A stretch of 64,000 bases of DNA from Fidelibacterota bacterium (GTDB lineage: Bacteria > Fidelibacterota > UBA8477 > JABMPR01). Where the stretch lies: contig JAJRSW010000068.1 in the NCBI GenBank assembly GCA_024278595.1, forward strand, positions 1 through 64,000, read 5' to 3'. Position 1 is the stretch's first letter. Every line of letters begins with the position of its first letter. Position numbers and translations under genes: made by a program. Positions 44,303-59,035 of this stretch are shown piece after piece. The notes beneath the pieces are model-generated. The model saw only the letters and a list, made by a program, of their open reading frames with translations. It was not told the origin of the DNA and made no database searches.

Positions 44303-45541
44303 ATGAAGCTGTTAGAGAAGCCCCCTTTTGAAGAGCTTGAAAATTGGAAAATCTTTGAGCACATCCCAGAGTCTGAGTTACACAACATTTTAAACAAACT
44401 GGAATACCGTCATTACAATCATGATGAGTCTATTATTCGAGAGGATACTTTAGGGGATCACCTCTTTATCCTTGCATCCGGTAAAGTCAGAATAGAAAAG
44501 AAAGTCAGTAGCAACAGATCGGAATTGCTTGGCTTCTATGATAAGGTAGGTGGTCTTTTCGGTGAGATGGCGCTTCTGGAGGATAAGCCGCGTAGTGCTG
44601 GGATGATCGCAGATACTGATTGTGAAGTGTTGGCCGTTTCCAAAGATGATTTCCTGGAATTGGTGAACTCTGTTCCCCTCTTTACCCTGTCTGTTGCAAA
44701 GAATATTGCTCAATTTCTCAGAGAAACAGATGATCGACTCATCAATAAATTAAAAAAAGAGAATGATGACCTGCGACATATGAATTATTTATTGCAGGAG
44801 ACTCAGGAAGAACTCATCGGCAAAGAACGTCTCTCTCTCATCGGTCGGATGGCGTCCACGATCCTGCATGATATGAAAAACCCCATGTCGACCATTGGCG
44901 GATATGCCCAGCTGATCAAAATGAAAAAACATAGTAGTGAACAACTGGCAAAATATGCTGACATTATTGCCAAACAAGTGATCCAGTTTACCAGCATGAC
45001 CCAGGATCTGTTGTCTTTTGCCCAGGGCGGTGAGCAAATGCGCTTAAAATCCGTTCAGATGGCCGACTATCTTCAAGAGTGTTGTGATTCACTGGTCCTC
45101 CGGTTTGATGAGCAAGGCATTGCTTTTGAGCGGGATCTTGCCTTTAAAGGTGAAGCTCGGATCGATAATGGTCGATTTTTCAGAGTCCTGGAAAATATTG
45201 CCATCAATGCACTTGATATTCTGAACGGGGAAGGAACTTTCACCGTACGCAGCCAGGAAGTTGAGACCGGAGTCCGGATCATCCTGGAGGACAATGGTAT
45301 CGGGATGTCTGAAGAGGTGAAGGAGAATGCCTTTAAAGAGTTCTACACTTTTGGAAAACGCAAAGGTACTGGTCTGGGACTGGCAATCGTTAAACGAATC
45401 ATTGACGAGCATGACGGAATTATCTCAATCGAGACAGAAGAGGGGGTCGGGAGTAAATTTATCATTGATCTTCCAGCAGTAGGTTACAACCTGTTGCCCA
45501 AATCCAAACACCAGATCCCCATACCATTTGATAACCATTAA
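44303..45541 (+). CDS. Soluble cNMP-sensing histidine kinase, copy 1
   Basis: An N-terminal cyclic-nucleotide-binding barrel (about 15-135) carries an intact phosphate-binding cassette (FGEMALLEDKPRSAG). A coiled-coil linker (KLKKENDDLRHMNYLLQETQEELIGKERL) leads to a HisKA domain with His189 in MASTILHDMKNPMSTIGGYAQLI, and an HATPase domain with N-box (LENIAINALDIL), DNGIGMS and GTGLGLAIVK. There are no membrane helices and no receiver domain. The protein should be a cytosolic kinase switched by cAMP, cGMP or a similar ligand. No cognate response regulator is adjacent. The next gene encodes a paralogue with the same layout. Confidence 0.88.
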   Translation: MKLLEKPPFEELENWKIFEHIPESELHNILNKLEYRHYNHDESIIREDTLGDHLFILASGKVRIEKKVSSNRSELLGFYDKVGGLFGEMALLEDKPRSAGMIADTDCEVLAVSKDDFLELVNSVPLFTLSVAKNIAQFLRETDDRLINKLKKENDDLRHMNYLLQETQEELIGKERLSLIGRMASTILHDMKNPMSTIGGYAQLIKMKKHSSEQLAKYADIIAKQVIQFTSMTQDLLSFAQGGEQMRLKSVQMADYLQECCDSLVLRFDEQGIAFERDLAFKGEARIDNGRFFRVLENIAINALDILNGEGTFTVRSQEVETGVRIILEDNGIGMSEEVKENAFKEFYTFGKRKGTGLGLAIVKRIIDEHDGIISIETEEGVGSKFIIDLPAVGYNLLPKSKHQIPIPFDNH

Positions 45542-45574
45542 TGCATTTCTATTAGCTGATATTAGATTATCCCC

Positions 45575-46762
45575 ATGCGTACTTTAGCACCCCCGCCCAT
45601 TGAGCTGTTAGAGCAGTTAGAACCCCTAAAGGGGATTCATCGGCATGAGCTTGAAAAGATGGGCAACCTCATGGAAAGGCAGCTCTACGAGCCTGGTGAA
45701 ATACTTATTCGCGAGGCTGCCATTGCATCTCAGTTCTTTGTCCTGATCAAGGGTCGTCTGGAAGTAATAAAAGCGATTGAAGGAAATACAGTTGAAGTCC
45801 TGAATGTGATTGACCAGGCCGGTGAACTTTTCGGCGAGATGGCTTTGGTTGAGGACATACTACGTAGTGCCAGTATCGTTGCCCGCGAGGAAAGTGAAGT
45901 TCTGGTGGTTCAGAAGGAAGGTTTTCTGGAACTGGTAAACCACTTTCCCCAATTTACCCTGGAAGTTGCCAAAAGTATCTCCACCTATCTGCGTCGTACT
46001 GATAGTACCCTGATCGGGGCTCTTGAATTAAAGAATCGAAAACTGTTGGAGACGATCCAGGAATTGCATGAAACCCAGGAAGCTCTGGTAGAAAATGAAC
46101 GCCTATCGATCATAGGGCGGATGGCTTCCACCATTCTGCATGATTTGAAAAACCCCATGACCACCATCGCCGGGTTTGCCCAGTTGATCGGGTTAAAAGA
46201 GCTACCCTACCCGGAAGTGGTCAAGTACACCAATATCATTGCCCAACAGGTAAAGCAGTTTAATACCCTGGCTCAGGAACTATTGGCTTTTGCCCGGGGA
46301 AATACCTCACTTCAGCTGCACACCCTGGATTTCCCCAGTTGCATACATGAAGCCCTGGCAGGAATCCACTTTAATCTATCTCAGCAAAAGATGAGCCTTG
46401 TCACAGACATTCAGGGGCAGGCCAAGATCAGTATCGATCCCAATCGATTTTACCGAGTCTATGAGAATCTGGCGAATAATGCCATTGAGGCCATGGATGA
46501 GGGTGGTGTTCTGAACATCAGCACCTTAGTTGAAAAGAATCATTTGCTGATGAAAATCTCAGATACGGGACATGGTATGGAACCCGCCATCATGGATAAA
46601 ATCTTTGATGAATTTTTCACCTATGAAAAGCATGGCGGAACCGGTTTGGGGCTGGCTATTGTTAGGAATATTGTGACGGATCATCAAGGTAAAATTAGCG
46701 TGATCAGCACCGTTGGCAAAGGAACAACCTTCACCATCAAGCTGCCCCTGGTGCAGGATTGA
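45575..46762 (+). CDS. Soluble cNMP-sensing histidine kinase, copy 2
   Basis: Same domain order and even the same His position (189, MASTILHDLKNPMTTIAGFAQLI) as the gene just upstream. The barrel's cassette reads FGEMALVEDILRSAS, so the Pro-Arg pair of copy 1 is Leu-Arg and ligand choice may differ. The coiled-coil linker (ELKNRKLLETIQELHETQEALVENERL), N-box (YENLANNAIEAM) and GTGLGLAIVR are intact. 33 bases separate the two genes, so they are co-transcribed. A tandem duplication that has diverged is the simplest reading; heterodimer formation is possible. Confidence 0.88.
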   Translation: MRTLAPPPIELLEQLEPLKGIHRHELEKMGNLMERQLYEPGEILIREAAIASQFFVLIKGRLEVIKAIEGNTVEVLNVIDQAGELFGEMALVEDILRSASIVAREESEVLVVQKEGFLELVNHFPQFTLEVAKSISTYLRRTDSTLIGALELKNRKLLETIQELHETQEALVENERLSIIGRMASTILHDLKNPMTTIAGFAQLIGLKELPYPEVVKYTNIIAQQVKQFNTLAQELLAFARGNTSLQLHTLDFPSCIHEALAGIHFNLSQQKMSLVTDIQGQAKISIDPNRFYRVYENLANNAIEAMDEGGVLNISTLVEKNHLLMKISDTGHGMEPAIMDKIFDEFFTYEKHGGTGLGLAIVRNIVTDHQGKISVISTVGKGTTFTIKLPLVQD

Positions 46763-49793: not shown

Positions 49794-50972
49794 ATGACAA
49801 TTATCGTTCGTCTTATTCTCATTTGCTCTTTATCTGGATATTCACAACATTTTGACAGAATACCGAATATTAGTAGGCAGATTGTGCATTTTGAAGATAA
49901 TGCATATGAAATATTTGCTTCGGATTTAATATTTGGCTCTCCAGATAAGTCAGGGTTGCAGCAACCAATATATAGAATTGAGTCATTTCAAGATTATTCG
50001 AATCGAGTAGTTGATATCGAATCAGGATTTGTGTTGAATTCCTATCGGTCTGATGGATTTATTCTCTATTCAAGATTTGCGAAATATTGGGCATCAAATC
50101 ATCCTGAGACCCCTGAATACAGCATCATTTCGGGTGTTGGTAAAGAGGGACCAATAGATTTTCACAAATCTGATATTTTAGTTGAAGGTGAATTATTCTT
50201 CATAAGTGAAATGGGAGAACAGTATCTCACCATCTATTCTAGTCAAACACTTAACTGTTTTTCACTCTCCGGGCAGCTATTGTGGTCTTTCAGGTATTCT
50301 TATGGTGACATTAGCTCTGATGAAATGTTTCTAAGTTCTGATGAATCGATACTTGTTATCAACAATCCAGGGAAAAGAGTGATAGCAATTGATATGAACA
50401 CTGGAAGGAAGAAATGGCAACGAGATGGGCGATATAGTGCAACGTCCGTTCCTTTTCAATTGAGTCCACTAACGGTTCTCTTTGACCAGCTATTTGAAAG
50501 TGCATTAATTTTGGATCGGAATGGTCAACAACTATTTGACTTAAATAAATGGCAGAATATCCAGAGGGAATTTTTCATAAATGATAAACAGCTAGTGACT
50601 GATAACTTAGTTATTCCAAATCTGCGTTATGAAGAGAATAGAGTAATTCTGCCAAAAAGATTAGCATCAAATCGATCATTCAAACCTGTAACACCAACAA
50701 GATGGTCAACAAAAGGAAAATATTCCGCCAGTGTCTTTGCATATTTAAAAAATGTTGAGCCACCGGACTCAGTTGCCTTAGAGGAGTACAGGATAGATAT
50801 TGTTTCAGCTGATGGAAAATCTATGGGGTTTTTCTATCCACGAATAAGATCAAAATTGGATCACTCAAAAATCAACGTCCAGGTATCCGATGATGGAACA
50901 AAGATTCTGTTTATCGGGAAGCAGGAAAATGGTGTTCAGTTTATTTGTAGAGAATACGAGATTTCGCTCTAA
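49794..50972 (+). CDS. Secreted protein with PQQ-like beta-propeller repeats
   Basis: The ATG at 49794 opens a signal peptide (MTIIVRLILICSLSGYSQ); the ORF-track start at 49749 adds 15 polar residues. Neither has a strong ribosome site. Repeats such as LNCFSLSGQLLWSFRYSYGD and VIAIDMNTGRKKWQRDGRYS resemble PQQ/WD-type beta-propeller blades. The rest is not recognised. AT-rich compared with core genes and next to repeats, so it may be part of the acquired island. Followed directly by repeat D. Confidence 0.6.
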   Translation: MTIIVRLILICSLSGYSQHFDRIPNISRQIVHFEDNAYEIFASDLIFGSPDKSGLQQPIYRIESFQDYSNRVVDIESGFVLNSYRSDGFILYSRFAKYWASNHPETPEYSIISGVGKEGPIDFHKSDILVEGELFFISEMGEQYLTIYSSQTLNCFSLSGQLLWSFRYSYGDISSDEMFLSSDESILVINNPGKRVIAIDMNTGRKKWQRDGRYSATSVPFQLSPLTVLFDQLFESALILDRNGQQLFDLNKWQNIQREFFINDKQLVTDNLVIPNLRYEENRVILPKRLASNRSFKPVTPTRWSTKGKYSASVFAYLKNVEPPDSVALEEYRIDIVSADGKSMGFFYPRIRSKLDHSKINVQVSDDGTKILFIGKQENGVQFICREYEISL

Positions 50973-51068
50973 CACCTTTTAAAAGTTATAAGTCAATAGT
51001 TAAAAAGAGTCTTACTCAATAAGAATCATTGATCCGTTTTTCTCAATTTTAGAACAACTACTAAACCC
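50973..51068. repeat. Repeat D, copy 1 (intact site)
   Basis: Opens AACACCTTTTAAAAGTTATA and contains TCAATAGTTAAAAAGAG uninterrupted. Diverged copies at 54279-54593 (split by an insert) and 55739-55814. In copies 1 and 2 it is followed by group II intron remnants. Confidence 0.75.
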
Positions 51069-51090: not shown

Positions 51091-51368
51091 ACTGTGGATC
51101 AAGTATAACCGACATTTGCCTGGGCGTCAGTTTTTCAAAGGGCTTAATGCTCGACTGATCGGGCATTACAACTACTATGGAATAGTTGGTAAATATGGAG
51201 CTATTGTTTTGGGCTATTGAAGGTTCTTTCAAATGGCTTAATCGTAGAGGTGGCCAGAAAAATAGTTTCAATTGGGACAAGTTTATTCGTATTCTCGACT
51301 ATGTTAGAGTTACGCGTCCACGGATCACTGAAGCTTGGCGTAGCAATACCGTTGCTTACCAGAATTGA
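51091..51368 (+). pseudogene. Group II intron reverse-transcriptase/maturase C-terminal remnant
   Basis: From about 51091 one frame reads KLWIKYNRHLP ... FFKGLNARLIGHYNYYGIVG, the conserved linker before the maturase X domain of group II intron proteins. One extra base in the TAAATATGG run shifts the frame, after which NMELLFWAIEGSFKWLNRRGG and NWDKFIRILDYVRVTRPRI continue the family to a stop at 51368. The reverse-transcriptase core is entirely missing. Joined directly to the intron RNA 3' domains. Confidence 0.8.
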
Positions 51369-51468
51369 CTTGCGCGAAAGCGAGTACGACTGAGCCGTGA
51401 GGAACCGGATCAGGGAAAACTGCACGTCCGGGACTGTGCAGGGGGCGCTGGGTAACCAGCGTTCCTAC
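51369..51468 (+). ncRNA. Group II intron 3' end, domains V-VI remnant
   Basis: After the ORF stop come CCGGATCAGGGAAAACTGCA and CGTCCGG, a hairpin like intron domain V, then GGCGCTGGGTAACCAGCGTTCC, a domain VI-like hairpin, ending in TTCCTAC. The intron 5' half and the ORF front are missing, so it cannot splice alone. A 142-base match recurs at 54584-54725. Confidence 0.7.
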
Positions 51469-51539
51469 CGCGAGATACGCATAAATAATATAATTATAAT
51501 TAACAGTAGCTGTGCATTAAAATATTGGATATTGTAACA

Positions 51540-51881
51540 ATGGATATTACATTCGCTGATAAGAAATTAAAAAAATATGCAAATGATAATAAGGCGGCGA
51601 TCAAAAAACTAGGCAACAAACGTGCTGGAATTTTCCAAACTAGATTAGAAGATATGGCCGATACGGATAGTTTTGCTGATTTGGAACATTTGCCGGGTCG
51701 TTTTCATCAATTGAAAGAGGATAGAGCAGATCAATGGGCATGCGATTTAGACCATCCCAAGCGACTATTATTTAAGCCTGGCGAGGATCCAATTCCAAAA
51801 AACAAAGATGGACGACAATTGCTTGCTGAAATTAAAACCGTAGAGATATTAGAAATAAACAATTACCACAAAAAGGGATAA
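51540..51881 (+). CDS. HigB/RelE-like toxin
   Basis: 114 residues (ATG at 51540, preferred to the TTG at 51525). The fold and motifs (ITFADKKLKKYANDNKAAIKKLGNKRAGIFQTRLEDM, DLEHLPGRFHQLKEDRADQWACDLDHPKRLLFKP) match HigB-type ribosome-dependent mRNA interferases of the RelE superfamily. The antitoxin gene starts 3 bases after its stop; toxin-first order is typical of HigBA. Together they form a type II toxin-antitoxin module. Shine-Dalgarno weak. Confidence 0.82.
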   Translation: MDITFADKKLKKYANDNKAAIKKLGNKRAGIFQTRLEDMADTDSFADLEHLPGRFHQLKEDRADQWACDLDHPKRLLFKPGEDPIPKNKDGRQLLAEIKTVEILEINNYHKKG

Positions 51882-51884
51882 ACG

Positions 51885-52979
51885 ATGGCCACTTTAAACG
51901 AATATTATCCTGAAGAAGTTCTCCACCCGGGTCACACTTTAAATGAAAAATTAAGTGAGCTTGGAATGAGTAAAAAAGAATTTGCCTTGAGAACCGGTAA
52001 GCCTGAGAAGACGATTATAGCAGTTCTTCAAGGTTCGAGTTCAATAACGCCAGAGATGGCAATATTATTTGAAAATGTGACAAAAATCCCAGCGCACTTT
52101 TGGATTAATAAACAATCTCGGTACAATGAATTCAAGGCAAGAAAGCAGAGAAAACTTGCTGTAGTGGAAGCAGAATCATGGGCAAGAAAGTTTCCCTACC
52201 CAGAGATGGCAAAACATGGTTGGGTACCTCAGACAAGGAAAATTGAAGAGAAAACAATATACTTATTTGAATATTTTGCCATTTCAACGCACCAAGCATG
52301 GGATAGCCTATATATTGAACGGCAACTTAAAGTCGCTGCATATGCTTCTCTAAAGCATACTCTGGAACCTCAAGCAATCTCTGCTTGGCTCCGTCAAGGT
52401 GAGTTACAAGCCCAGGGTTGTTCTTGTCCAGTGTTTGACAAAAAGAAACTTAGATTGATTATCGAACCTCTGAAATCAATAATGGCAACCCACTCTACAG
52501 ATTTTTTCAAGAAAATTCAAAAGCTCTGTTTGGAGTGTGGTGTAAAGGTTTTCTTTACCCCTAAGTTACCAAAGGTCCCGATAAATGGGTCTACCCGTTG
52601 GATTAAAGATACGCCAGTAATTCAAATGACTGCACGGTACAGGCAAAACGACCGTTTTTGGTTTACATTTTTTCATGAGGTTGGTCATATACTTCTTCAC
52701 GGGAAGAAATATATTTCATTAGAAGGGATTGATTTCTCTGAATCAGACCCTCTCAAAGAACAAGAAGCTCATGCGTTTGCTGAAGAGGTTACATTCTCCC
52801 AAAAAGCAGAAAAAGAAATGTTATCAAACAAGCATATTGATGAAAACCTTATCCTCGAATATGCACAAAGGTATAACACGCATCCTGCACTAATAATTGG
52901 AAGGCTACAGCACAAACGTTTAATTCCTTATTCAGTCGGACATCAATTTATTGAACCAATCGACCTATCAGGTAATTGA
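51885..52979 (+). CDS. HigA-type antitoxin fused to an ImmA/IrrE metallopeptidase domain
   Basis: N-terminal HTH of the HigA/XRE kind (HPGHTLNEKLSELGMSKKEFALRTGKPEKTIIAVLQGSSSITPEMAI), then a long helical linker and a C-terminal ImmA/IrrE zinc-peptidase-like domain with FFHEVGHILLHG (HExxH 264-268) and EQEAHAFAEEV (third-ligand region). AAAGGGA precedes the start at good spacing. It follows the HigB-like toxin by 3 bases. The peptidase domain may cleave a repressor or the antitoxin itself when triggered. 364 residues against about 100 for plain HigA. Confidence 0.85.
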   Translation: MATLNEYYPEEVLHPGHTLNEKLSELGMSKKEFALRTGKPEKTIIAVLQGSSSITPEMAILFENVTKIPAHFWINKQSRYNEFKARKQRKLAVVEAESWARKFPYPEMAKHGWVPQTRKIEEKTIYLFEYFAISTHQAWDSLYIERQLKVAAYASLKHTLEPQAISAWLRQGELQAQGCSCPVFDKKKLRLIIEPLKSIMATHSTDFFKKIQKLCLECGVKVFFTPKLPKVPINGSTRWIKDTPVIQMTARYRQNDRFWFTFFHEVGHILLHGKKYISLEGIDFSESDPLKEQEAHAFAEEVTFSQKAEKEMLSNKHIDENLILEYAQRYNTHPALIIGRLQHKRLIPYSVGHQFIEPIDLSGN

Positions 52980-53003: not shown

Positions 53004-53086
53004 AACAATATTAGGATAGACATGACCCCAAGACGAGTCTGAGCATCAAAAAAGCAGGGTTGGGGTCATGTCTATCCTGCTGTTCG
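53004..53086. repeat. Repeat R1 hairpin
   Basis: AGGATAGACATGACCCCA (53013-53030) and TGGGGTCATGTCTATCCT (53061-53078) pair perfectly over 18 bases with a 30-base loop. The left arm plus AACAATATT is identical to 901-925 (reverse complement), and a worn copy lies near 56979-57008. REP- or MITE-like; no transposase present. Confidence 0.8.
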
Positions 53087-53472: not shown

Positions 53473-53653
53473 TTAGCCTGAATAATTCATAGCCACTAAG
53501 TCACGAAGGCACAAAGTTCTAAAATATATATGCTTATCAAAATTTATCACTCACAGATGCAAATAATTCTGTTTATAATGACCTTGTTCATAACTTTAAT
53601 AATATTCGTGGTTTAGGGTCTTTGTGGCAATAACTCATGAATAATGCAGGTTA
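53473..53653. repeat. Repeat family A, copy 2 (full length)
   Basis: Starts TTAGCCTGAATAATTCATAG and ends in the imperfect inverse (CATGAATAATGCAGGTTA). Core matches copies at 1-145 and 57162-57327. Confidence 0.8.
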
Positions 53654-53742: not shown

Positions 53743-53981
53743 ATGTCTAAAACTGTAACTCTTCGATTAAAAGAAGACACATATTTAAAATTTCAGAAAC
53801 TAGCAAAACAGGACAATCGACCACTATCAAATTTATTGAAACTGCAGCACTTAGATTCATCGATGATTCAGAATATATCGATAGTTTTGAAATGAGTGAA
53901 ATTCAGCAAAATGAAGAATTAAATGCCAGCATCAATCGTGGTCAGAATGATGCCAAATCTGAAAGAGGTCGTTTTGTCTGA
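53743..53981 (+). pseudogene. Ribbon-helix-helix antitoxin with frameshift
   Basis: GAGGTGA precedes the ATG. MSKTVTLRLKEDTYLKFQKLA and RPLSN match RHH antitoxins. One T appears to be lost in a short T-run near 53832; restoring it gives FIETAALRFIDDSEYIDSFEMSE and a stop at 53981 that overlaps the toxin start, as normal for these modules. Either a broken antitoxin or a base-calling error in a homopolymer. Confidence 0.7.
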
Positions 53982-54255
53982 GTTTCGAATTTATGAAACA
54001 GATGAATTTATTAAAAAACTTAGTAAAATGTCACCCACCGATGCATCACGCATGCAGAGAAAATTGAAGTCATACGTGTATCCACAATTAAAACAAGATC
54101 CTTTCTGGGGTGCAAATATCAAAAAGTTGAGAGACTACAAACCAAGTACCTGGAGATATAGATTTAATAAGTTCAGGCTCTTTTATACTGTGGATATTGA
54201 CGAGCGTATTGTTTTTATCTTGACCATCGATTTTAGAAAGAATGCATATAGATAG
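53974..54255 (+). CDS. RelE-family toxin
   Basis: The start is probably the TTG at 53974 (AAAGAGG five bases before), overlapping the antitoxin stop; the ORF-track ATG at 53923 lies inside the antitoxin. FRIYETDEFIKKLSKMSPTDASRM, the core WGANIKKLRDYKPSTWRYRFNKFRLFYTVD and the last-strand VFILTIDFRKNAYR are complete for a RelE/YafQ-like mRNase. Intact while its antitoxin is shifted. Confidence 0.78.
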   Translation: MSEFRIYETDEFIKKLSKMSPTDASRMQRKLKSYVYPQLKQDPFWGANIKKLRDYKPSTWRYRFNKFRLFYTVDIDERIVFILTIDFRKNAYR

Positions 54256-54278
54256 CTGGTTAAAACTGTTGCCCAACA

Positions 54279-54593
54279 CCTTTTAAAAGTTATAAGTCAA
54301 TAGTTGACGCCCCCGCAGAAAGTCCCTCTCGCAGAGCGTTGCATTGAGTCCTTCGACTGAGCTCAGGAACCGCCCTTCGACTGAGCTCAGGAACCGCCCT
54401 TCGAAATGACGCAAAATGGTGTTATTTATTGCTTTACGTGTATTCGTTGTAAGCAGTTGTATTTAAAGGTTATAGGGCATATTATGTGATTTTCTAAATA
54501 CTTTTTGCGAGCTCATCAATAGTTAAAAAGAGTCCTGCTCAATAAAAATCGTTGATCCGTTTTTTCTCAATTTCAGAACAACTACTGAAGCTT
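54279..54593. repeat. Repeat D, copy 2, interrupted
   Basis: Left part 54279-54305, then an inserted element, then the remainder from 54516. TCAATAGTT stands on both sides of the insert (54297-54305 and 54516-54524) but once in copy 1 (50994-51002). Confidence 0.75.
54306..54515. mobile_element. MITE-like element C inside repeat D
   Basis: About 210 bases flanked by a 9-base direct repeat TCAATAGTT. Its left end (GACGCCCCCGCAGAAAGTCC) matches the reverse complement of the right end of element C at 55956, and its right end (GTGATTTTCTAAATACTTTT) matches the reverse complement of that element's left end. Internally it carries the tandem CCTTCGACTGAGCTCAGG (two full units, 54350-54402). No transposase; would need one in trans. 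Confidence 0.72.
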
Positions 54594-54725
54594 GGCGTAG
54601 CAATACCGTTGCTTACCAGAATTGACTTGCGCGAAAGCGAGTACAACTGAGCCGTGAGGAACCGGATCAGGGAAAACTGCATGTCCGGGACTGTGCGGGG
54701 GGCGCTGGGTAACCAGCGTTCCTAC
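54584..54725 (+). ncRNA. Second group II intron 3' remnant
   Basis: Nearly identical over 142 bases to 51327-51468 (maturase tail, domains V-VI). It joins repeat D directly at ACTACTGAAG, so the roughly 265 bases of maturase sequence between repeat D and this point in copy 1 are deleted here. Non-functional. Confidence 0.75.
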
Positions 54726-54815
54726 CGCGCGAGCCACACTTTACTTCTTGCCGAATCAAATACTTGCCAATCCCTATGAATAGAAGTACATTCAGGCATA
54801 CAGTAGGAGGTAACA

Positions 54816-55091
54816 ATGAATACAATTCCACCCATCATTCCAATCAGCGATCTACGTCAAGATGCAGCGGCAGTCCTGAAAAGTATTAAGAATTCAGATC
54901 AACCCGTGGTTATTACGCAGAGAGGACGTGCAGCTGCAATTATGTTAAGCGTTGAATCGTACGAGCAGAGTTTGCACGAAAAAGAGCTTCTCATGTTACT
55001 CGCAAAGGGCGAAAAGGAAATTGAGGTTGGCGAAGGATATGACCTGGAAACTATTCTCGCGGATGCAGATTCTATTCTATCGGCAAAATAA
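54816..55091 (+). CDS. Phd/YefM-family antitoxin
   Basis: A strong TAGGAGG precedes the ATG. PISDLRQDAAAVLKSIKNSDQPVVITQRGRAAAIMLSVESYE is the Phd/YefM DNA-binding domain; the acidic C-terminal tail (EKEIEVGEGYDLETILADADSIL) would wrap the toxin. The stop shares one base with the toxin start (TAATG), giving coupled translation. Confidence 0.9.
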   Translation: MNTIPPIIPISDLRQDAAAVLKSIKNSDQPVVITQRGRAAAIMLSVESYEQSLHEKELLMLLAKGEKEIEVGEGYDLETILADADSILSAK

Positions 55092-55381
55092 TGAAGATAA
55101 AGTTCACACCTTCAGCTAGAAGTATGTTTCTTGATGCGGTTCTTCACATAAAAAAGGAGAATCCTCAAGCAGCTACACGATTTAGGTCGAAAACAGACAG
55201 TGGACTAGTTCGATTAATTGAATTTCCTGAATCAGGTAAACGAGTTCAAGAATTTCCAGCTCTCGCATTTCGTGAAATATTGATTTCGCCTTTTCGCTTT
55301 TTTTATAAACCAAAAGCTGAAACAATTTGGATTATTGCTGTGTGGCACAGCGCACAACTTCCTAAGAGATCAACAAAATAA
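55091..55381 (+). CDS. ParE/RelE-family toxin
   Basis: KIKFTPSARSMFLDAVLHIKKENPQAATRF, then SGLVRLIEFPESGKRVQEFPALAFREILISPFRFFYKP and a last strand with IWIIAVWHSAQ match ParE-type toxins, which block gyrase, or RelE-type mRNases. 96 residues. It follows its antitoxin with a one-base overlap. Confidence 0.88.
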   Translation: MKIKFTPSARSMFLDAVLHIKKENPQAATRFRSKTDSGLVRLIEFPESGKRVQEFPALAFREILISPFRFFYKPKAETIWIIAVWHSAQLPKRSTK

Positions 55382-55429
55382 TTGGCTGACTTAGTGTCAA
55401 GGACATTCAGGAAAAACGGATCATGTGAT

Positions 55430-55693
55430 ATGTCACATTGGAATACTAGAGTTATCAGGAAGTATGATCAGAAAACGGATACAACTATTTTTGAAATGCA
55501 TGAAGTCCATTACGATGATAATAATCGAATCATAGCTTGGACTGAATCTTCTGTTGGACCCTTTGGTGAGACATTAGCGGAATTGAAAGAGGATATTAAA
55601 CATTTTCTAGAAGCAGTTCAAAAACCGATACTTCAGGAGAATTGTCATGAGGCTGGAGAAATCTTGGTTGAGGTAAAGGAATCTGAGCGATAA
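55430..55693 (+). CDS. Small conserved-type hypothetical protein next to the ParE module
   Basis: The ATG at 55430 is preferred to the TTG at 55382, because MSHWNTRVIRKYDQKTDTTIFEMHEVHYDDNNRIIAWTES looks like a family often annotated as a hypothetical (WNTR/R core, HEVHYDD, P-GE loop, ELKEDIKHFLEAVQKPIL). About 87 residues. It runs on from the toxin gene and may be a third gene of the transcript. Function unknown. Confidence 0.6.
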   Translation: MSHWNTRVIRKYDQKTDTTIFEMHEVHYDDNNRIIAWTESSVGPFGETLAELKEDIKHFLEAVQKPILQENCHEAGEILVEVKESER

Positions 55694-55738: not shown

Positions 55739-55814
55739 CACCTTTAACAGGTTTCTAGTAATAGCTAAAAATAGTCCTACTCAATAAAAATAATTGCTCC
55801 GCTTTTTCTCAATT
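55739..55814. repeat. Repeat D, copy 3
   Basis: A diverged copy (AACACCTTTAACAGG ... CCTACTCAATAAAAATAATTG ... TTTTTCTCAATTTT), ended by element C. Confidence 0.65.
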
Positions 55815-55956
55815 TTGACGCCCCCGCAAAAAGTATTTGGAAAAACACGGAATATACCTATGTGTAATAAATACAGTTATTTATGATAAATACACCTAAA
55901 CCTATAAATAACAACGCTCTGCGCTCTGCGAGAGGGACTTTCTGTGGAGGCGTCAA
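55815..55956. mobile_element. MITE-like element C, second copy
   Basis: Terminal inverted repeats TTGACGCCCCCGCA and TGTGGAGGCGTCAA with inner pairing (AAAAAGT / ACTTTCT). 142 bases, no ORF. Flanks CAATTTT and CAATATT may be a worn target duplication. Confidence 0.65.
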
Positions 55957-56879: not shown

Positions 56880-57601
56880 TGCGACTTGTTTAACAGTGAA
56901 ATTTCTGTCTGCCGCTTCGGACTCATCCCGACACTTCGGGTTTCCCTGCGGCGGGATCTACGACAAAAAAGCAGTGACGGGTCATTTCTAGTCTGCTGTT
57001 CGATAATACCCTACTCACTTCCCAATTAGCCCTAACTCCGGCATCTTTTCCATTTTCACTTCATCCCGGACAAGCCCAGATACTCTGGGTTTCTGAGGCG
57101 GGATGGATCTTGCCGGGATTTGTAAACCAGAAAAGTATTTTGAATTTAATATACTTTAGAGCTAACCTGAATAATTCATAGCCACTAAGTCACGAAGGCA
57201 CCAAGTTTTAAAAAATAGATGCTTAGCAAAAATTATCACTCACAGATGCCAATAATTCTGTTTAGAATGACCTTGTTAATAACTTTAATAATCTTCGTGG
57301 CAATAATTCATGAATAATGCAGGCTAAATATGGTATGACTCATCACCAGGACTACCCATTTCAGACAAATCAATACTACATCAGGAGGCTACTCAGGTAC
57401 GGAATTTTCGTGTGTGCTAGACTGTGATTTTGAATCATTTATGAAAGTGGCCGCTCGATAAACAGCCAGGCTTATTCAATGTGGTGACTTCTCATTTAAT
57501 CTTCTTCCTCCCAGTATTCATTATGATTCATTAAATAAAATTGCCTGAAACCTTTCAAGATACTCGGCATTGAAAGGGATATAGAAATTGGAGAGATTTG
57601 C
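56880..57601. other. Intergenic region with several repeats
   Basis: Holds a worn R1 copy (56979-57008, ACGGGTCATTTCTAG then TGCTGTTCGATAA), two CATCCCG...CGGGAT hairpin-like units (about 56924-56951 and 57053-57103), the GCATCTTTTCCATTTTCAC word shared with 29809 and family A copy 3. The 270 bases before the Deg gene show no further structure. No gene supported. Confidence 0.55.
57162..57327. repeat. Repeat family A, copy 3
   Basis: Starts CTAACCTGAATAATTCATAG, ends GAATAATGCAGGCTAA, and lacks a 16-base piece (CTTAGTGTTTTCGTGG) present in copy 1. Confidence 0.8.
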
Positions 57602-59035
57602 ATGAAAAGACATATACTACGATTTATCCCACTGCTAATTATTATCCTGCTTATACCTGCTCAGATACAGGCCTCTGATATCAGCGTGGCCAAAGCAGTG
57701 AGTAATGCCTTCGCAGATATAGCAGAACGCGTTTCCCCTTCCGTGGTCACCATCACCAGCGAGCACGTTTTTAAACATCCCGCAGCGGAACAGTTCAGAA
57801 GCTTTCAGGATATGTTTCCTGACCAGTTCAGACAATTTTTCCCGGAGGGGCAGCGTGAGTTGCGCAGCACTTCGCTGGGATCAGGCATCATTATCAGTCA
57901 AGATGGCTATATCATTACCAACAATCATGTGATTGAAAAAGGTGAAAATATAAAAGTACAATTTTCTGATAATACAGAAATGGATGCTGAGATCATCGGA
58001 AGTGATCCCAAAACTGATGTGGCTTTGATCAAGGTGGATGCTAAAGATCTTAAGCCCATAAAAATGGGCGACTCTGAAAAAATCCGGGTCGGGGAATGGG
58101 TGTTAGCTGTTGGCAGCCCGTTTTCCGGTAGCCTCTCCCAGACTGTAACCCAGGGTATTATCAGCGCTATAGGTCGTTCCGCCGTTGGCTTGGTTGATTA
58201 TGAAGATTTCATTCAAACCGATGCCGCTATTAATCCGGGAAATTCAGGGGGGCCCCTGGTCAATCTGGATGGCAAGTTGATCGGAATGAATTCGGCCATT
58301 GCTTCCCGGAGTGGAGGATCCCAGGGAATTGGATTCGCCATTCCCATCAATCTGATAAATCGCATCATCGAAGATCTGCGCGAAAATGGCCGGGTGACCC
58401 GCGCCTGGCTGGGAGTCTGGGTCCAGGAAGTAGACGGGACCATGGCAAAAACTCTGGGGATGAAAAATGCTCGCGGAGCCCTCGTGGGACAGGTTGTGGA
58501 AGATAGTCCTGCTGATAAAGCCGGTTTACATGAACTTGATGTCATCCTGGAGTTTGATGGCCATGAGGTTGAGAACAACCGCAGATTGCCCATCATCGTT
58601 TCCACCCAGCGCCCGGGAGATAAGAAGAAGATCAAGATATTGCGGGAAGGAAAGTTTAAAACCCTTACTGTAAAATTGGGTGAAATGCCTGAAGAGGCTA
58701 TTGCTGCCGGTCCCTATGAATTTGATGACTCCGATATTGGTATTACTGTGGAAACCGCCAGTGCTGAGAGACTTAAATACTATGGGTATTCCCGGGGGAC
58801 AAAGGGAGTTTTGGTGACCTCCGTGGACAACAACAGTGAGGCCTATAAAAAGAATATCCGGGTTGGGCAGCTGATCCAAAAGATGGGTCCGAATGTCCGC
58901 AACCTTGACAAAGTAGTTTCGCGGCAGGGCTTTGAAGCAGCGCTCAGCGATTATAGTGCTGATGACCCGATCCTACTATTGATCCGACGTGATGCAAACA
59001 GCACCTTCTTTGTGGCCTTGACCATTCCAGAATAA
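57602..59035 (+). CDS. Deg/HtrA-type periplasmic serine protease
   Basis: Signal peptide (MKRHILRFIPLLIIILLIPAQIQA), protease domain with the full triad (His109 in ITNNHVIE, Asp139 in KTDVALIKV, Ser215 in NPGNSGGPL), and two PDZ domains (ARGALVGQVVEDSPADKAGLHELDVILEF and TKGVLVTSVDNNSEAYKKN). The Q-linker (FKHPAAEQFRSFQDMFPDQFRQFFPEGQ) before the triad is the DegQ/DegP form. Length 477 is typical. It degrades or refolds damaged envelope proteins. A terminator follows. Confidence 0.93.
   Translation: MKRHILRFIPLLIIILLIPAQIQASDISVAKAVSNAFADIAERVSPSVVTITSEHVFKHPAAEQFRSFQDMFPDQFRQFFPEGQRELRSTSLGSGIIISQDGYIITNNHVIEKGENIKVQFSDNTEMDAEIIGSDPKTDVALIKVDAKDLKPIKMGDSEKIRVGEWVLAVGSPFSGSLSQTVTQGIISAIGRSAVGLVDYEDFIQTDAAINPGNSGGPLVNLDGKLIGMNSAIASRSGGSQGIGFAIPINLINRIIEDLRENGRVTRAWLGVWVQEVDGTMAKTLGMKNARGALVGQVVEDSPADKAGLHELDVILEFDGHEVENNRRLPIIVSTQRPGDKKKIKILREGKFKTLTVKLGEMPEEAIAAGPYEFDDSDIGITVETASAERLKYYGYSRGTKGVLVTSVDNNSEAYKKNIRVGQLIQKMGPNVRNLDKVVSRQGFEAALSDYSADDPILLLIRRDANSTFFVALTIPE

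Follow-up and report, generated by a model that had tools for sequence, protein, structure and literature searches.

A probable HigB-like toxin paired with a HigA-M78 peptidase fusion recurs in restriction-modification operons: a possible proteolysis-triggered switch in phage defence

Relatives of a gene pair that encodes a HigB-like protein (A) and a HigA-type helix-turn-helix (HTH) protein fused to an M78 (ImmA/IrrE) zinc peptidase (B) are recurrently embedded in restriction-modification (RM) operons, which suggests a phage-defence switch that is triggered by proteolysis. Conservation of the pair extends over several phyla, far beyond chance. The copy studied here lies in a window of 64,000 nucleotides from a Fidelibacterota bacterium, by which we mean the whole stretch of DNA that was analysed. 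The original prediction had named a HigB gene followed by a 364-aa HTH/zinc-peptidase gene with an HEVGH motif, and open reading frames, profiles and fold comparisons confirmed both; the polarity of decay, with A as toxin and B as antitoxin, and the recurrent embedding in RM operons go beyond it. M78-antitoxin fusions recur in phage defence, as in PD-lambda-2 and RosmerTA, and how the peptidase triggers or restrains the toxin is the question that they raise. The branch found in the window joins the peptidase to the structurally best understood type of HigB, that of Proteus. That it recurs within RM operons (type I and type III-like) points towards restriction being coupled to abortive infection, which could be tested in cultured relatives, e.g. 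Muricauda sp. M10 or Kordia algicida.

The gene pair and its genomic setting

Both genes lie on the + strand. Gene A (51540..51881) encodes a HigB-like toxin of 113 aa with a BECR/RelE fold, as judged from the open reading frame and its translation, profile, fold and conservation. It starts with an ATG at 51540, an in-frame TTG at 51525 being a possible alternative, and ends with TAA, leaving a gap of 3 bp to B. Gene B (51885..52979; open reading frame, profiles, fold and conservation) encodes 364 aa, in which a HigA-type HTH domain (residues 11-88, 51915..52148; sequence and fold matches) is connected by a linker to an M78 peptidase, the core of which comprises residues 206-300 (52500..52784; profile, fold and conservation). 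The HEVGH zinc-binding and catalytic motif (sequence and conservation) corresponds to residues 264-268 (52674..52688).

The GC content of A (0.365) and B (0.387) is lower than that of the window (0.454), and the pair is located in a stretch of low GC, between about 49.5 and 56 kb, which also contains repeated non-coding segments and further toxin-antitoxin genes. Because of this combination of low GC content, neighbouring toxin-antitoxin genes and repeats, the stretch looks like an acquired accessory region. An Rfam scan of the A-B locus yielded no RNA, its two weak miRNA-like matches corresponding to a hairpin at 53005-53084. Sigma-70 promoter-like sites showed no excess, and none was found on the + strand upstream of A.

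Protein A has the fold and active-site residues of HigB

The match of A as a single sequence to PF05015 was weak (E 0.018, under the Pfam cut-off), so that the label HigB is insecure when based on this one sequence; NCBIfam profiles gave no match to it and a sequence search of the PDB no relevant one. Two relatives (L019 and L014) exceed the PF05015 cut-off, and a profile built from 46-47 relatives of A matched Proteus vulgaris HigB with an E value of 1e-6. The AF2 model of A reached a pLDDT of 93.7, and its top PDB matches in Foldseek were chains of P. vulgaris HigB (TM 0.57-0.76), including the Y91A variant and the delta-H92 form on the ribosome.

Apart from the start Met, G25, H56, L58, R75 and H110 are invariant among 51 sequences of the A family, and the conserved core consists of H56, L58, R75 and (N/D)108-Y109-H110. 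In the profile alignment, H56 and R75 align with H54 and R73 of P. vulgaris HigB, within H-x-L-K and W-R respectively. The C-terminal N/D-Y-H of A presumably corresponds, by its position, to D90-Y91-H92 of the P. vulgaris toxin. GraT, a relative of HigB, has been described as having an active site around His92 (PMC6393540). Position 59, a lysine in A, is variable in the family (T, K or S). The window copy has asparagine at position 108, in its NYH motif; we rejected this as a sign of toxin decay, since 15/51 homologues contain N at this position and the remaining 36/51 contain D. Inactivity of the toxin at key residues would have spoken against the original prediction; H56, R75 and H110 are all retained in the window copy. 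Based on the modelled fold and the active-site residues, A can firmly be regarded as a HigB-type toxin, with toxicity as a predicted property.

Protein B combines a HigA domain with a conserved M78 peptidase

B matched PF01381 (HTH_3) and PF06114 (Peptidase_M78; 39 bits, cut-off 22), and reached 45.2 bits with the HigA profile TIGR02607, which is 2.5 below the curated cut-off of 47.7. Residues 11-88 superimposed on solved HigA antitoxins with TM values of mostly 0.7-0.9, normalized by target length, and the fold neighbours of the C-terminal domain were CapP (7t5t) and PprI/IrrE (8sln, 3dti). The metal-binding motif reads F263-H264-E265-V266-G267-H268 and is followed 24 residues later by E292, within ExEAxxFA (52758..52760, + strand), which we presume to be the third metal ligand, rather than E294, on account of its invariance (48/48) and of the M78 fold. 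Comparison with homologues, as proposed in the original prediction, showed H264, E265, H268 and E292 to be unchanged in 48 diverse sequences, and the loss of the third ligand, which had been named as a possible objection, was not observed.

Mean conservation along B was 0.68 in the peptidase core, 0.63 in the HTH, 0.57 in the middle part, 0.48 in the linker and 0.47 in the tail, and identity to the nearest relative amounted to 83% in the peptidase core and 77% in the HTH. Since the peptidase core is more conserved than the HTH, proteolysis by B is probably under selection. The putative metal site also makes it extremely improbable that the peptidase domain persists only as a non-catalytic structural remnant, a reading for which we found no supporting observation and against which the four invariant residues and the rank of the peptidase core as the best conserved part of B both argue. 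Neither a cleavage site nor a surface for binding of ssDNA was identified in B. A recognised counterpart of the GAF-like C-terminal domain by which PprI is helped to bind ssDNA was not found either, and the trigger may therefore differ from that of PprI.

B repeatedly ended just behind the ExEAxxFA helix, lacking its last ~50 aa but retaining the HTH and the metal site, in five loci (L054, L057, L059, L061 and L134) and likewise in G595, G392, G445:C60, G449 and G389, which belong to different lineages. Programmed frameshifting was rejected as an explanation of the truncated proteins (~305-325 aa) in these five loci, as the downstream DNA does not encode the tail in any frame.

Pairing and decay point to A as toxin and B as antitoxin

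In 79/80 homologous loci that were fetched with B as search bait, A was located immediately upstream of B. With A as bait, 393 genomes were searched, all from the phylum to which Parabacteroides faecalis (genome G246, locus L041) belongs; B lay directly downstream of every A match (40/40), and 21/61 B matches had no A that was detected at that threshold. Among those of the B-only cases that were re-read, five proved to have a divergent A, and in three genomes A was cut to a stub of ~17 aa beside an intact B, which probably represents a single event; others had a broken or undetected A. A was disrupted next to a full-length B in seven of the 80 loci (L020, L023, L048, L051, L082, L085 and L093), and in loci with an intact A, changes in B were mainly C-terminal truncations sparing HTH and metal site (L054, L057 and L059); no intact A was seen beside a B with a lost HTH in the loci examined. 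An apparent A-B fusion at G364, with an open frame of 486 aa, was rejected because it consists of two ordinary genes. The polarity of decay, which was observed mostly in metagenome-assembled genomes, suggests the role of toxin for A and that of antitoxin for B, because A never occurred without B (40/40) while B survives a dead or deleted A.

Relation to known toxin-antitoxin and defence systems

The architecture of A and B has already been described, and sequence comparison places the window branch as a distinct sister branch of PD-lambda-2, an experimentally defined anti-phage system of E. coli (Vassallo 2022, PMC9519451). The gene order is the same in both, with a HigB-like gene followed by one for a HigA HTH and ImmA/IrrE peptidase, and the PADLOC profile PD-lambda-2_B matched B of the window along the greater part of its sequence (E 6e-30, 102.8 bits), whereas proper members score 402-464 bits. 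In contrast, A of the window is PF05015-like, of the Proteus HigB type, and A of PD-lambda-2 belongs to PF09907. The PD-Lambda-2_A profiles gave no match to A of the window and four relatives, while proper members reached E values of 1e-19 to 1e-41. Proper PD-lambda-2 B proteins additionally have an N-terminal extension of ~50 aa that B of the window lacks. The third gene of PD-lambda-2, C, which is P4 antitoxin-like, is required for defence against lambda (PMC9519451), and in the window, PADLOC profiles matched none of four genes examined among those in the 2.8 kb downstream of B. Judged by these profiles, the pair may work like PD-lambda-2 and yet is not a member as defined, because its A has no PD-Lambda-2_A match and its B scores only 103 bits. 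Proper PD-lambda-2 A and B were found outside E. coli, in the genus of the host (L137, G002) and in its phylum (L138, G099); their HigB belongs to PF09907 and their B scores 402-464 bits. The genome of the window itself contains a remnant of a PD-lambda-2-type B, a 126-aa piece beside a nuclease gene resembling sbcD (G000:C51, L228 1805-2185).

In the sections of Makarova 2009 (PMC2701414) that concern HTH-COG2856 fusions, such fusions next to RelE are listed and predicted to form a three-component toxin-antitoxin system. The general architecture of fusions next to RelE or PIN toxins in these sections is common to the window pair, and the Microscilla plasmid pSD15, which they name, carries a member of the A-B family (L012). 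A separate family, an analysis of active site or decay and embedding in RM operons are not given for a HigB/HigA-M78 pair in these sections.

RosmerTA likewise combines an HTH-ImmA antitoxin, RmrA, with diverse adjacent toxins, and phage defence has been demonstrated for several such pairs (PMC10440598). However, RmrA profiles matched B weakly (best E 5e-11) and only in the peptidase (~residues 211-343), and the toxins described for RosmerTA are not HigB-like as the partner in the window is; the pair thus has neither a full-length RmrA match nor an RmrT toxin. With P. vulgaris HigBA it shares the toxin fold, the active-site core, the HigA fold of the N-terminus of B and the toxin-first order, but canonical HigA has ~100 aa and no peptidase. 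The pair displays what characterizes type II HigBA, namely a HigB fold with catalytic core and the gene of a HigA-type HTH antitoxin directly downstream, and B has the HEXXH and downstream acidic third ligand, the latter inferred, of an M78 peptidase fold. In CapH/CapP, PprI(IrrE)/DdrO and ImmA/ImmR, an M78 peptidase cuts an HTH repressor, and the C-terminal domain of B resembles CapP and PprI in fold; unlike in B, protease and repressor are separate proteins in these systems, and what they govern is CBASS, DNA repair or an integrative element instead of a fused toxin-antitoxin.

Association with restriction-modification genes

When neighbours in the family loci were clustered and typed with Pfam, HsdM, HsdS, HsdR, N6_N4_Mtase and SNF2/ResIII helicases were found, and further neighbours were a Piwi protein, a Fic protein, a KAP NTPase and an Abi_C protein. 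A co-directional RM gene lies no more than 250 bp away in 26/80 loci, with orders such as hsdM-hsdS-A-B-hsdR (L024), hsdM-A-B-hsdS-hsdR (L042) and helicase-A-B-mod (L089). In a matched comparison of loci from the same genome set, RM matches within ~3 kb were obtained for 19/40 family loci and for 0/40 canonical HigA loci (Fisher p = 2e-7); the RM queries were taken from loci of the family, and some of these loci recurred in the test set, but the queries represent conserved families, so that divergent copies should have been detectable in the controls as well. On the tree of the family, the RM label required 14 changes and was no more clustered than in shuffles, which led us to reject embedding as one old event; for these reasons the association must, on the tree, have arisen or been lost many times. 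A conserved third gene downstream of B was not found in the family, where only RM genes recur. In one locus (L036:5109-7160), the gene of a Piwi-domain (argonaute-like) protein follows B at a distance of 23 bp, and hsd genes lie upstream.

The window copy groups with a locus from Prolixibacteraceae (L019), next to L021 and L022, which are both RM-associated. No RM genes lie beside A and B in the window, and profiling of the neighbours for RM or other defence genes established none. Among the candidates, 57602-59032 was rejected because protease-bearing defence profiles matched it only via trypsin/PDZ domains, and 44303-46762 encodes cNMP-binding histidine kinases.

Regulated proteolysis as a model for toxin control

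Control of the toxin through regulated proteolysis by the putative peptidase of B is plausible. In the reading that we prefer, with a probability of roughly 0.5, A and B form a horizontally mobile two-gene type II module in which B is neutraliser and repressor and its M78 domain a conditional switch that frees A. A would be a ribosome-dependent mRNA endonuclease of the HigB type; B would neutralise it and repress the operon through the HigA domain. A stress- or phage-related signal would set off the live metallopeptidase, which would cut B, either the same molecule or a partner subunit, in the HTH/linker region (in cis or in trans). Cleavage would derepress the operon and free A, and the resulting stop of translation would amount to abortive infection. 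The model builds directly on both folds, intact invariant active sites, near-obligate pairing, decay polarity and the RM association of the family, and predicts toxicity, neutralisation, autorepression, peptidase activity, substrate and trigger. As far as the available accounts extend, M78 proteases with known substrates, i.e. ImmA, PprI and CapP, cleave the HTH repressors ImmR, DdrO and CapH, and ssDNA activates PprI and CapP. Against a release switch speak the missing counterpart of the ssDNA-binding GAF-like domain of PprI, the window copy that lacks adjoining RM genes, the large share of metagenome-assembled genomes in the decay evidence and the use of B as bait for the 80 loci.

The reverse assignment of roles in PD-lambda-2 argues against the model as well: overexpressed B is toxic there and the HigB-like A rescues (PMC9519451), and the roles of toxin and antitoxin therefore cannot be assumed here. 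B might thus be a growth-inhibiting effector that A restrains or co-regulates, in accordance with the nearest characterised system and with the peptidase core as the best conserved part of B. We consider this rather unlikely, as B persists intact in loci with a broken or deleted A, a state that should not be tolerated at native expression if B were an unrestrained toxin, and as A never occurs without B and retains the full active-site core of HigB; moreover, the toxicity in PD-lambda-2 may be an effect of overexpression, and its A belongs to another HigB family.

An extension of the release-switch model, which we regard as speculative and doubtful, is that A and B are a built-in fail-safe of RM systems. 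The peptidase would sense failed or overwhelmed restriction through DNA ends, ssDNA or the loss of an RM subunit, cut its own HTH and free HigB for abortive infection, and stand-alone copies like that of the window would do the same job without RM.

It is less probable that B neutralises A enzymatically, by binding and degrading it or by degrading a factor that A needs, with no release switch. An invariant active site and obligate pairing would fit any role that requires constant activity, but canonical HigA neutralises HigB by binding alone, the known M78 proteases (ImmA, PprI and CapP) act on HTH repressors, and we found no earlier case in which an M78 protease degrades a toxin of the RelE fold. 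Slightly more improbable still is that B mainly serves as a protease-controlled repressor setting the expression of RM genes in neighbouring defence operons, with A as accessory. The position of the pair inside hsdM-(hsdS)-A-B-hsdS/hsdR and helicase-A-B-mod operons and the precedent of DarTG2/RptR, in which a type I RM operon incorporates toxin-antitoxin genes together with a repressor, are in line with such a function; about half of the loci, including the window, nevertheless have no RM genes nearby, and the tight co-conservation of A argues that it is essential to the function.

Repeats, mobile elements and further toxin genes

Direct repeats at 51327-51475 and 54584-54732 (97% identical) bracket the A-B pair and the next toxin gene, and a third copy is present at G000:C15:2554-2625. 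The repeat at 51327-51475 and an upstream 60-aa ORF (51186-51368, containing FKWLNRR) resemble what we take to be a group II intron at its 3' end, with the maturase; neither was matched by Rfam or Pfam. The hairpin at 53005-53084 has two near-perfect arms of ~20 bp (AGGATAGACATGACCCC) and is MITE-like. The genome contains 8 near full-length copies of it (86-100%) and two partial matches, and several copies lie on contigs with integron-integrase-like fragments (C63, C17 and C39); an integron integrase above the curated cut-off is encoded at C47. Repeated non-coding segments are interspersed between the accessory genes (50971-51065, 54275-54589 and 55760-55831; 53474-53653 and 57163-57326) in a cassette-array-like manner. 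Downstream of the pair, a stretch of toxin-antitoxin genes (53743-55693) comprises a weakly RHH/CopG-like ORF with a ParE-like one (53743-54255), Phd/YefM with ParE (54816-55381) and then a 103-aa ORF that was assigned to no family.
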